A DNA stretch of 5,765 bases from Nitrososphaeria archaeon. Lineage in GTDB: Archaea; Thermoproteota; Nitrososphaeria; Geothermarchaeales; JDFR-13. Positions 1,048 through 4,710 of the stretch are shown one piece after another. Every line of letters begins with the position of its first letter. The stretch's first letter is position 1. The notes beneath the pieces were generated by a model. The model did no database searches. It saw only the letters and a list, made by a program, of their open reading frames with translations, and had not been told where the DNA came from. The stretch spans positions 1 to 5,765 of the forward strand of contig JALSHT010000003.1 in assembly GCA_026982095.1 (NCBI GenBank), read 5' to 3'. A program made the position numbers and the translations under genes.

Positions 1048-1866
1048 TTACTTAAACAATCCATCAAGGACATCATTAACAGCATCGGCAATATGCTGGA
1101 CCTTCCTAAGGTTAGGGGTAGATGACAAGTTAGATAGTGATATGGGAGTCATCGATATGTTACCGTTTATTAATACCTCATATCCATCTGTCCCTTTAGG
1201 GAAGCTCTTAAACTTCTCTCCCCAGAGCCAGAAATACTCTCTCCCCCTTGGGTCATATCTAACATAGAGTTTCGTATTTAAAGATAGTCTGGCAAGCCTA
1301 GTAACAACTATCCTTGATTGAGGTGTAATCTGTTTAGGGAAGTTTATATTATAGAGGTCTACATTCTCTGGTAAGCCCTCTTCAAGAACTATTTTGACTA
1401 TCTCCCTAGCAATAAGAGATGCCATCTTGAAGCCGCCTCTAACCACTTCACCACCTATTACATCAGCTTTAGGCATAGACTTAGAAAATGATATACTAGG
1501 TATGTTATGGAGAGCTGAAAGAAGTGCACCGGCCACCGTACCACTCATGAAAAACTCTAGGAGACTAACGTTTTCACCTATGTTGATTCCTGAGACCGTT
1601 ATATCAGGAGGCTTCTCCATAATATGGAATAAACCCATACTTACACAGTCGCCAGTCGTACCATTCACTAGATAGCAGAGTTGATCCTTATATATGGCTC
1701 TCCTAACTCTTAGAGGCTTATGAAGGGTTACACTCAACCCTGCTGCACTCCTCTGCTGCTCAGGACATACAACTGTCAACTCCCCCAAGTCCCTAAGGGC
1801 ATCTATCAATCTCCTAAGCCCCGGGGATCTATATCCATCGTCGTTAGTCAACAATATCCTCGCCAA
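1048..1866 (-). CDS. surE: 5'/3'-nucleotidase SurE
   Basis: The product is a 272-residue metal-dependent phosphatase of the SurE family; the E. coli protein is about 253. Seen: the N-terminal signature LLTNDDG (5-11), whose two aspartates bind the divalent metal; RSAAG (39-43), carrying the conserved serine; NGTTGDCV (68-75); SGINIGEN (92-99) with the metal-ligand asparagine N95; and MSGTVAGALLSA (107-118). Family members remove phosphate from 5'- or 3'-nucleoside monophosphates and sometimes from short polyphosphate, in the cytoplasm. The start is TTG at 1864-1866: the NDDG motif must sit close to the N-terminus, and an in-frame stop (the tyrS TGA) lies only three codons upstream, so no ATG is possible. 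It follows tyrS by 6 bp and is almost certainly co-transcribed with it. Downstream of its TAA there is only a loose T-rich stretch (minus strand TTCTTTG). Confidence 0.95.
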   Translation of the reverse strand: MARILLTNDDGYRSPGLRRLIDALRDLGELTVVCPEQQRSAAGLSVTLHKPLRVRRAIYKDQLCYLVNGTTGDCVSMGLFHIMEKPPDITVSGINIGENVSLLEFFMSGTVAGALLSALHNIPSISFSKSMPKADVIGGEVVRGGFKMASLIAREIVKIVLEEGLPENVDLYNINFPKQITPQSRIVVTRLARLSLNTKLYVRYDPRGREYFWLWGEKFKSFPKGTDGYEVLINGNISMTPISLSNLSSTPNLRKVQHIADAVNDVLDGLFK

Positions 1867-3092: not shown

Positions 3093-4259
3093 ATGAAGAT
3101 AGATATTACCCTCTATAGAAAAGTATCTGACGAGATAGAGAAGCATCAGACAAAGTATAGAACATATCTCCACACCATATCAAATAGATTGAGGAATAGG
3201 AAGATAGATATTAGAAAGCTTTACTATGCCCTCAAGAGCCTCCGAATCTACGACACAGTTCGATACGCAAGTATAGCCGATGAGGCTCTAAAGATAATTA
3301 TATCAAGCCAATTGAGTGAAGGTGAGCCAATCATAATTAAGGATGTATATAAAAGAGTCAGTAAAGGAAGGACCACCACAGAATATTCAGAGGGTGGTTT
3401 CCCAGACATGCTTGAAGGAAATAAAAAGGTGATTCATGCTGAGGCACCCTCGATAGACTCTACAATATATGCCCTACAATCTATTGTAGAATATTCGGCC
3501 CACATCCAATACTGGGACAAGACTATTGAGGAGGCGATAAAGGCTGGACTAAGATATCTACAGTTGAGAGACATAAATGGAGACGGACTATTAGAGCAAT
3601 CCAAGGGAGAAGACTGGATACCACTTCTAAGGAGGGATGGAAGCCTACTATATACTAACGCCTTATATCTAAAACTTCTTGAAGACCTATATTATCTATA
3701 CCTCGATAAAGATAAGGAATATAGTGAATACATTAAAAGCCTATACACGAAGGTATATAGGAGGATAGAGGAGAGCTTCTGGATGGACAGTCTCTACATC
3801 GAATACATAAACAGTAGTGGTGCTAAGGTATGGAGGGCGGGGGTAGACAGCTCCACTGCTGGTAGGCCTATTATTATGAGGGAGGCCAATAAAATTCATA
3901 AACATTTTACAACGCTTTATAACAGGCTTTACAACAGTCAAAACAACCTTTTAATAACGTCAGAGGCAAGGATAAAAGTCAATCCCGAGGATAGAAATCT
4001 ATATAGAATCTCAACTCCTCTACAATCTGCTGTATATGCAATGGATGTAGCTGAAGCTGGATATCCAAATCTAGCACTAAAAATAATGGATACGGTATTC
4101 CCCTACGAGGAGAATAGCCTCATTATAATTGATGACAAGAATAAAATCGTCTCTAGAAAGAGAGATGGTGATATAGCATTAGACCTAGTTCTTCTAGGAA
4201 CCTACAAGATAATTTCAGGAATTGTTAAAGGGGGTGAGGGTGCATCAGCTGGCTTCTGA
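3093..4259 (+). CDS. Six-hairpin (alpha/alpha) glycosidase-like protein, resembling the glycogen-debranching enzyme catalytic domain
   Basis: This is a 388-residue, mostly helical protein without an evident signal peptide or membrane segment. Seen: GGFPDML (101-107); APSIDSTIYALQSIVEY (118-134), resembling the 'Y-x-x-x-D-A-x-L-W-x-x-x-A-L' segment of amylo-alpha-1,6-glucosidase domains; DINGDGLLEQ (160-169) then GEDWIPLLRRDG (172-183) and TNALYLKLLEDL (188-199), placed like the D-G-L, T-W-M-D and E-x-N-A-L-x-Y segments; EESFW (226-230); and WRAGVDSSTAGRP (247-259). The order and spacing fit a glycogen-debranching-like (alpha/alpha)6 barrel. That assignment is inference from remembered motifs. 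Two things are odd. The family's early Gly-Arg-Asp motif is not visible in the short N-terminal part (about 95 residues before GGFPD), and the residue after D-W-I is proline where I expect the family aspartate, so it may act on another glycan or be inactive. The ATG at 3093 is the only start after the in-frame stop at 3084-3086. The last six codons lie inside the left terminal repeat of the structured element. Confidence 0.62.
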   Translation: MKIDITLYRKVSDEIEKHQTKYRTYLHTISNRLRNRKIDIRKLYYALKSLRIYDTVRYASIADEALKIIISSQLSEGEPIIIKDVYKRVSKGRTTTEYSEGGFPDMLEGNKKVIHAEAPSIDSTIYALQSIVEYSAHIQYWDKTIEEAIKAGLRYLQLRDINGDGLLEQSKGEDWIPLLRRDGSLLYTNALYLKLLEDLYYLYLDKDKEYSEYIKSLYTKVYRRIEESFWMDSLYIEYINSSGAKVWRAGVDSSTAGRPIIMREANKIHKHFTTLYNRLYNSQNNLLITSEARIKVNPEDRNLYRISTPLQSAVYAMDVAEAGYPNLALKIMDTVFPYEENSLIIIDDKNKIVSRKRDGDIALDLVLLGTYKIISGIVKGGEGASAGF

Positions 4260-4269
4260 ACCAGCTGAT
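4242..4269. repeat. Left terminal inverted repeat, itself palindromic
   Basis: These 28 bases match the reverse complement of 4621-4648 at 26 positions, including the first 18 (GCATCAGCTGGCTTCTGA). Within the repeat, ATCAGCTGG (4244-4252) and CCAGCTGAT (4261-4269) form a perfect 9-bp hairpin with an 8-base loop. Each end can therefore either fold on itself or pair with the other end. No target-site duplication is visible in the flanking bases. Confidence 0.85.
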
Positions 4270-4274
4270 TTTCT
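4244..4274 (+). terminator. Possible terminator of the glycosidase-like gene
   Basis: On the plus strand, the 9-bp hairpin 4244-4252/4261-4269 is followed at once by TTTTCT. The T run is what matters in archaeal termination. The site overlaps the stop codon (4257-4259), and its hairpin may belong to the minus-strand RNA instead, so the call is tentative. Confidence 0.35.
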
Positions 4275-4287
4275 CCACTGCCTCTCG

Positions 4288-4300
4288 GGCCCGTTAGGGA
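4288..4300 (-). repeat. Internal-loop motif, copy 1 (arm A)
   Basis: The minus strand reads UCCCUAACGGGCC. The same motif, with one extra A and one base change, recurs at 4481-4494 in arm C, both times on the 3' side of the arm (as RNA) between an outer and an inner helix. Repetition in equivalent structural positions suggests a functional loop or a duplication. Confidence 0.6.
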
Positions 4301-4407
4301 CTCAGATACTCAGGGGCTTGCCCGGTGAGATGGTGGCCAGCCATCCCCCGTGCCCCTTTGTATCTGAATCCCCAGAGGCACCGTGGAGATGCTCCTGCCT
4401 CTTTAAC

Positions 4408-4438
4408 GGCTAACCCACCACTTCGGAGATGGGTGGCC
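4408..4438 (-). repeat. Hairpin B, the counterpart of hairpin D
   Basis: The plus strand begins GGCTAACCCACC and ends GGTGGCC. Hairpin D (4578-4605) begins GGCTCACCCACC and ends GGTGGGCC. In both units the hairpin neighbours a long arm through a short linker (GCCTCTTTAAC before B, GCCTTT before D, plus strand), so they look like copies of one module. Confidence 0.6.
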
Positions 4439-4480
4439 TATTTCTTGCATATACACCTCCCCTTCTGAACCCTGGGGATA

Positions 4481-4494
4481 GGCCCGTTTAGAGA
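4481..4494 (-). repeat. Internal-loop motif, copy 2 (arm C)
   Basis: The minus strand reads UCUCUAAACGGGCC, in the asymmetric internal loop of arm C opposite 4539-4544. It differs from copy 1 by one inserted A and one C-to-U change. Confidence 0.6.
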
Positions 4495-4577
4495 TACCCC
4501 TTTGGAGGTTTAGGGTGTTCCCCCAACCTCCTAGGGGTCCAATACCCCCAGGGTTCTGGGGATGTGTATATGCCTTT

Positions 4578-4605
4578 GGCTCACCCACCTCCTTATAGGT
4601 GGGCC
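4578..4605 (-). repeat. Hairpin D, the counterpart of hairpin B
   Basis: CCCACCT (4584-4590) and AGGTGGG (4597-4603) form a perfect 7-bp stem with a 6-base loop, and flanking GG/CC can extend it past a four-base bulge. On the minus-strand RNA it is the first hairpin after the 5' strand of the closing helix. Confidence 0.65.
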
Positions 4606-4620
4606 GCCTCGGCAAGAGCT

Positions 4621-4648
4621 CTCAGCTGGCTCAGAAGCCAGCTGATGC
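4621..4648. repeat. Right terminal inverted repeat, itself palindromic
   Basis: This is the partner of the left repeat (26 of 28 positions). TCAGCTGGC (4622-4630) and GCCAGCTGA (4637-4645) form a perfect 9-bp hairpin around a 6-base loop. On the minus strand this is the RNA 5' end. Confidence 0.85.
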
Positions 4649-4672
4649 CACTAAAAGGGGTTTGATAATCGA

Positions 4673-4679
4673 TTTTATA
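4673..4679 (-). promoter_or_regulatory. TATA box of the structured RNA
   Basis: The minus strand reads TATAAAA, within CTATAAAATC, centred about 28 bp before position 4648. Transcription would start within a base or two of the closing helix. It lies between the ligase stop (4711) and the RNA, where no downstream protein gene on that strand would need it. Confidence 0.7.
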
Positions 4680-4710
4680 GATAATGTATATCTCAACCTC
4701 ACTTGGAGAG

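Follow-up and report, generated by a model that had tools for sequence, protein, structure and literature searches.

What is encoded by the GC-rich island that separates two convergent genes in a 5,765-nt stretch of archaeal DNA (hereafter the window), and is it the gene of an RNA? In order, the window contains genes for a geranylgeranyl-reductase family protein, SurE, tyrosyl-tRNA synthetase and a 388-aa protein, then the island and an ATP-dependent DNA ligase gene. The convergent flanking genes bracket 407 nt (4242-4648, minus strand), across which the GC content of 200-nt windows is 0.51-0.58, compared with 0.33-0.52 in the rest of the window. The initial annotation had given the island these coordinates, and they proved correct: the arms 4242-4268 and 4622-4648, of 27 nt each and 96% complementary, close the structure. 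Its placement between convergent genes holds for the orientation of the flanks, but the last codons of the left-hand gene reach 4259, inside the 3' arm of the island. The minimum free energy (MFE) of the minus strand is -266.3 kcal/mol (z -20.4); its shuffles average -156.8, and none of 100 is as low. For the plus strand the MFE is -235.6 kcal/mol (z -14.9). The closed, multi-branched fold drawn by eye is recovered by computation, with 158 base pairs instead of the estimated 100 or so. The features of the locus are the following.

4242-4652, minus strand: large-RNA gene, structured part 4242-4648 (407 nt), fold z -20, covariance-model family
4649-4652, minus strand: AGTG, probable 5' end of the RNA, AGTG in 11 of 12 copies
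4673-4679, minus strand: TATAAAA, putative TATA box of the RNA promoter, -31 to -25 from 4648
4622-4648, minus strand: 5' arm of P1, also self-complementary, local hairpin possible
4242-4268, minus strand: 3' arm of P1, the opposite strand carrying the stop codon of the convergent gene
4391-4619, minus strand: arm P2, element nt 30-258, branch of the MFE fold
4481-4540, minus strand: apex of P2, stems d and e, then GGGGUAUC and GGGCC
4593-4597 (5' side, UAUAA) and 4420-4424 (3' side, GAAGU), minus strand: internal loop of P2, alike by eye in L001, L088 and L089
4272-4389, minus strand: arm P3, element nt 260-377, branch of the MFE fold
4299-4370, minus strand: core of P3, the piece modeled as R1 and R2
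4315-4322, minus strand: GGCAAGCC with the bulge GGCAA in P3, identical in 11 of 12 copies
4287-4292, minus strand: palindrome GGGCCC on the 3' strand of P3, identical in 11 of 12 copies, candidate dimerization or long-range kissing contact

With the ligase of the window as query, 70 loci were retrieved; the top three belong to archaeal MAGs and show 88, 76 and 64% identity, and the MAG at 88% is named Candidatus Geothermarchaeota. The island lies downstream of the ligase gene in all three of these best relatives (L001, L002 and L003). Its identity to the window copy is 95-96% in L001 and 75% in L002, and the 337-nt copy of L003, missed by whole-element blastn, retains the ends, the motifs and the fold. 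A covariance model of the 72-nt P3 core built from the window and these three loci (R1) finds the RNA in 10 of the 12 genomes of one order of heat-loving archaea from hot vents, that of G001, which we infer to be Geothermarchaeales. The same ten genomes, and no further ones, were returned by R1 over 300 sampled class genomes, and again by a second model built from 11 sequences (R2) over 400 class genomes. Over 398 genomes of the phylum, R2 found G001 plus one chance match, L108 (26.9 bits), the sole phylum match outside the order, rejected because it lies inside a long open reading frame, which we take to be that of MCM. Each of the ten genomes with a match, among which the window's own genome is not counted, has a single locus; a second model match lies about 200 nt upstream within the same element in G035 and G038, and is the element's own complement in G001. 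Of the two order members without a match, G026 has directly after its ligase gene a GC-rich island with GCATC...GGTGC ends (L125) that the P3 model matches weakly (16.1 bits, E 0.01 over 5.7 kb); it is probably a divergent copy in an eleventh genome of the order. In the other, G029, the contig with the matching ligase piece stops inside the ligase gene.

No credible copy was found outside the order, be it in the class, the phylum, two further phyla, viral contigs or phage and plasmid collections, the class, phylum and wider-phyla searches having been run with stricter filters that weak relatives could escape. The RNA was found in none of the 115 genomes from the phylum of G727 and none of the 279 from that of G726, and blastn of 4200-4700 gave no match in the phage or plasmid collection. 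The exact 27-nt end pattern does not occur in the viral and genome contigs, a pattern that misses known relatives too, L001 included. A scan of viral contigs for GGCACGGG..CCGGGCAAGCC returned 12 stretches, taken as chance since the best scores only 20.1 bits under R2. The 12 copies measure 337-491 nt, and AGTGGCATC is exact in nine of them.

Terminal inverted repeats of 27 nt, each nearly palindromic, and a GC content that differs from that of the host are what a MITE-like mobile element would present. The several dispersed copies by which such an element is recognized are lacking, as the ten genomes with a match have one locus each; in 10 of 11 genomes the RNA occupies the same site, following the ligase gene; and P1 and P3 carry compensatory changes. 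Single locus, synteny and compensatory changes together lead us to reject a mobile element, the probability of which is close to nil.

These compensatory changes emerge from a comparison of the 12 copies, the folds of which have z between -3.6 and -22.3 (30 shuffles each). A shared plan, the closing helix P1 (12-31 positions) and exactly two arms (P2 and P3), appears in 11 of 12 separate MFE folds, and none of 150 dinucleotide shuffles (25 for each of six copies) shows at least nine of ten end pairs together with two branches. The divergent L125 keeps the end helix, and its MFE fold has four branches, not two. In P1, 12 of 17 positions covary among the 12 copies, pairing is full except in L090 and L125, and the arms pair at 0.951 with their own partner versus 0.731 when swapped between copies. 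P3 was counted over 11 copies (9 distinct rows) in an alignment fitted to the model and biased toward structure, the four seed copies being gap-free outside the loop. There, 93.6% of cells are paired, versus 70.5% with the 3' letters redealt and at most 49.1% with the partners slid. Changes on both sides are seen in 19 of 26 pairs of P3, made up of all 11 outer-stem pairs and 8 of the 10 inner-stem ones; helix 2 has no covarying pair and 77.8% of its cells paired. In P2, all 50 cells of one apex stem and all 40 of the other are paired across ten copies, and changes are few; this is weaker evidence because these stems were taken from the folds themselves. The full-length MAFFT alignment of the 12 copies is poor in mid-P2, where the arm differs between subgroups, and was excluded from pair counting. 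RNAalifold on four copies found 31 of 134 pairs doubly changed, in a small set of which two rows are close relatives.

Compensatory base changes maintain one fold among the homologues, as is expected of a structured ncRNA gene. The family is single-copy across one archaeal order, with P1 and P3 kept by compensatory change and P2 in the same placement. A structured RNA is what the initial annotation had read in the sequence; the strong covariation of P1 and P3 bears this out, and the scattered copies that would have spoken against it are absent from the ten genomes with a match. A protein-coding island was considered by inspection only, its small frames of 63 aa (plus strand) and 70 aa (minus strand) being disfavored by the covariation in the stems and by differences in length among the copies.

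The topology alone does not tell the strand, since the reverse complements of 11 of the 12 copies fold into the same topology, a likeness to be expected of a sequence that is paired. The coding (minus) strand folds better than its complement in all 12 copies, and G-U combinations number 24 versus six A-C on this strand (P1 positions of 12 copies, P3 of 11). The TATAAAA noticed upstream of the minus-strand 5' end is indeed there, starting 31 nt before 4648. Across the family, 11 of 12 copies have a TATA-like heptamer that starts at -30 to -34 relative to the first G of GCATC, a count based on simple consensus scoring with no shuffled control; the top-scoring site of L090 lies elsewhere, and AAATAAA is seen there by eye at -32. 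From the position of this box and the AGTG of 11 of the 12 copies, we place the probable start of the RNA at AGUGGCAUC, downstream of a TATA box of its own.

The most conserved letters of the element lie in P3, where GGCAAGCC is replaced by GGCAGGCC in the divergent L125. Outside P3, the apex of P2 is another near-invariant patch. The GGCAA bulge is unpaired in most folds, pairs otherwise in L002, and is mixed in L086 and L087. The P3 model also weakly matches P2 of the same element, at L085 1700-1774 (minus strand, 26.9 bits), a match in which GGGCAAG is present, and at L084 1300-1375 (plus strand, 24.2 bits); the two arms may have a common origin or a binding motif in common. The UAUAA/GAAGU internal loop of P2 may be UAA/GAN-like. 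Finally, the 5' arm of P1 can form a hairpin of -14.0 to -20.7 kcal/mol in 8 of 12 copies, the closing duplex being stronger in all 12, and these palindromic arms may aid co-transcriptional folding or strand exchange between two molecules.

Could the island belong to a known RNA family? A cmscan against the 4227 families of Rfam 15 gave no match to the island at E <= 5, the sole match in the window being a chance-level snoRNA at 1714-1764, and at E <= 1 it assigned no family to the coding strand of the element at nine loci with copies (L001 not among them). On the opposite strand of P3, L088 and L089 show at 1484-1574 (minus strand) a DUF1874 RNA match of 27.9 bits (cut-off 42), probably by chance. 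The initial annotation had likewise recognized no known family, RNase P and SRP RNA among those looked for, and both are found at other loci in the same genomes.

Apart from rRNA, RNase P and SRP RNA are the usual large archaeal RNAs, and the element could in principle be a very divergent version of either, or of another known archaeal RNA. RNase P RNA (RF00373), which resembles the element as a large archaeal housekeeping RNA, scores above the Rfam cut-off at other loci in six of the 12 order genomes, all six with the new RNA; SRP RNA (RF01857), likewise a large archaeal RNA, of about 300 nt, does so in nine of the 12. Each has its own locus and neither model matches the element, for which cmscan returned no family. 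Genomes without a match to either may reflect assembly gaps. A known RNA is rejected on account of the separate loci and the absence of an Rfam match, and we hold it to be very improbable. Box C/D and H/ACA guides are common in archaea too, and a compound guide RNA with an enlarged scaffold could use the internal loops as pockets. The coding strand, however, has no Rfam match, and the most conserved bases, GGCAAGCC and GGGCCC, are not the guide boxes as we know them, which makes a guide improbable.

Among the ornate RNAs of bacteria and phages, OLE, ROOL and GOLLD are Rfam families, and their models are all without a match here; the likeness to ornate large ncRNAs proposed at the outset is fair as a description. 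OLE shares with the element a large size, an elaborate fold, conserved nucleotide patches and extremophile hosts. It is bacterial and about 600 nt long, whereas the element is archaeal, 337-491 nt long, set among other neighbors and without an Rfam match. ROOL and GOLLD are also large and ornate, and become multimeric through kissing loops among other contacts. They form multimeric RNA nanocages (PMC12286853), in contrast to an element found at a conserved archaeal chromosomal locus and unmatched in Rfam.

Whether the RNA belongs to its neighbors can be judged from its surroundings. The order ligase, RNA, glycosidase-like gene, then TyrRS, SurE and reductase, surrounds most copies in whole or in part, and the ligase gene is upstream of the RNA in 10 of the 11 genomes with the RNA (G026 counted). 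In G021 the RNA is intact and none of the five window proteins was found encoded within the 16 kb examined. Since it persists there with different neighbors, the RNA is probably an independent gene, as opposed to an extension of the ligase gene. A cis element could be the 3' UTR of the ligase mRNA, or it could regulate the convergent glycosidase-like gene as an antisense RNA. This would explain the position downstream of the ligase gene in those 10 of 11 genomes, as well as the overlap, in the window and L001, with the end of the convergent coding sequence. Against it stand the TATA-like box that the RNA has for itself and its intact state in G021; moreover, the convergent gene ends before the RNA in L002, and the size and structure far exceed those of a terminator. 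We therefore give a cis element little credence.

The relocated RNA of G021 adjoins a long repetitive frame rich in W, D and T (L127 8324-10219, minus strand), with a signal-like start and a masked stretch, which looks like a surface protein.

We favor, with moderate confidence, the view that the island encodes a large, stable, independently transcribed ncRNA, which would be a new trans-acting RNA or RNP scaffold. In this proposal, drawn from sequence comparison, the RNA would start at AGUGGCAUC from its own TATA box and act in trans as a folded particle, either an RNP scaffold or a complex of RNA alone, much as bacterial ornate RNAs do. Binding or active sites would be provided by the GGCAA bulge, which is near-invariant, and by the apex of P2, and the RNA may self-associate via the GGGCCC palindrome. 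Against this proposal stand the 16.1 bits of L125 and its MFE fold without the two-branch plan, the variability of P2, the few changes in the P2 apex stems and the lack of covariation in helix 2 of P3.

Were the GGCAA bulge and the P2 apex an active site, the RNA would be a ribozyme that processes other RNAs or itself. Near-invariant, mostly unpaired nucleotides held in a rigid frame, and a size that resembles that of catalytic RNAs, agree with this idea. No Rfam family is similar, catalytic ones included, and conservation of this kind suits protein binding equally well; we consider a ribozyme unlikely.

The possible self-association of the proposed trans-acting RNA has a parallel in OLE. One contact of the OLE dimer is a kissing loop with a palindromic GGCC, which is exchanged for other palindromes by covariation, whereas further symmetric kissing loops of OLE are highly conserved without such covariation (PMC12286853). 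GGGCCC is present in 11 of 12 copies of the archaeal element and is GGGACCC in L125; being invariant, the palindrome cannot covary. In P3 it is predicted to be mostly unpaired in 7 of 11 copies (L003, L084, L085, L086, L087, L088 and L090) and mostly paired, with a probability above one half, in the window, L001, L002 and L089. Given the GGCC contact of OLE and its other symmetric kissing loops conserved without covariation, a dimer is a fair guess but nothing firmer, and the analogy hints that the palindrome may be a dimerization contact. A pseudoknot between GGGCC of P2 and GGCCC of P3 is also possible in one subgroup, where both sides are invariant.

The element is rated here as a new RNA class because it has no Rfam match and no description in the literature searched, the wider category of large structured RNAs being known. 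The accessible portions of open-licence PMC articles on Geothermarchaeota/Geothermarchaeales, ornate RNAs, archaeal ncRNA screens, structured Thaumarchaeota RNAs and new large RNA classes contain no description of this RNA; one of these articles gives 104 candidate RNAs (PMC2864571). That 10, and probably 11, of the 12 order genomes have the RNA, each at a single locus and with its structure strongly selected, implies a basic function, one that has so far not been looked for. To our knowledge, conserved archaeal ncRNAs of this size have rarely been described outside rRNA, RNase P and SRP RNA. In its boldest form, the interpretation would be that of a class unknown until now, universal in the order as RNase P and SRP RNA are, dimeric through GGGCCC, a ribozyme or an RNA particle, and an independently arisen archaeal counterpart of the bacterial ornate RNAs; taken as a whole, this picture is conceivable yet doubtful. 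With this family one can test directly whether ornate large RNAs like those of bacteria and their phages also arose in archaea.

The 388-aa product of the convergent gene (3093-4259, plus strand) has no Pfam or NCBIfam match, and only six entries, itself included, were found among 5.8 billion proteins. Its predicted structure (mean pLDDT of 80) is similar to those of (alpha/alpha)6 glycosidases, GH116 for example, with a best Foldseek E of 1e-7, a TMq of about 0.6 and an identity of about 10%. The stop and last codons (4242-4259) fall inside the 3' arm of the RNA gene, on the opposite strand, and the C-terminal ASAGF or ASAGI is common to the protein and its two closest relatives, P0002 and P0003.
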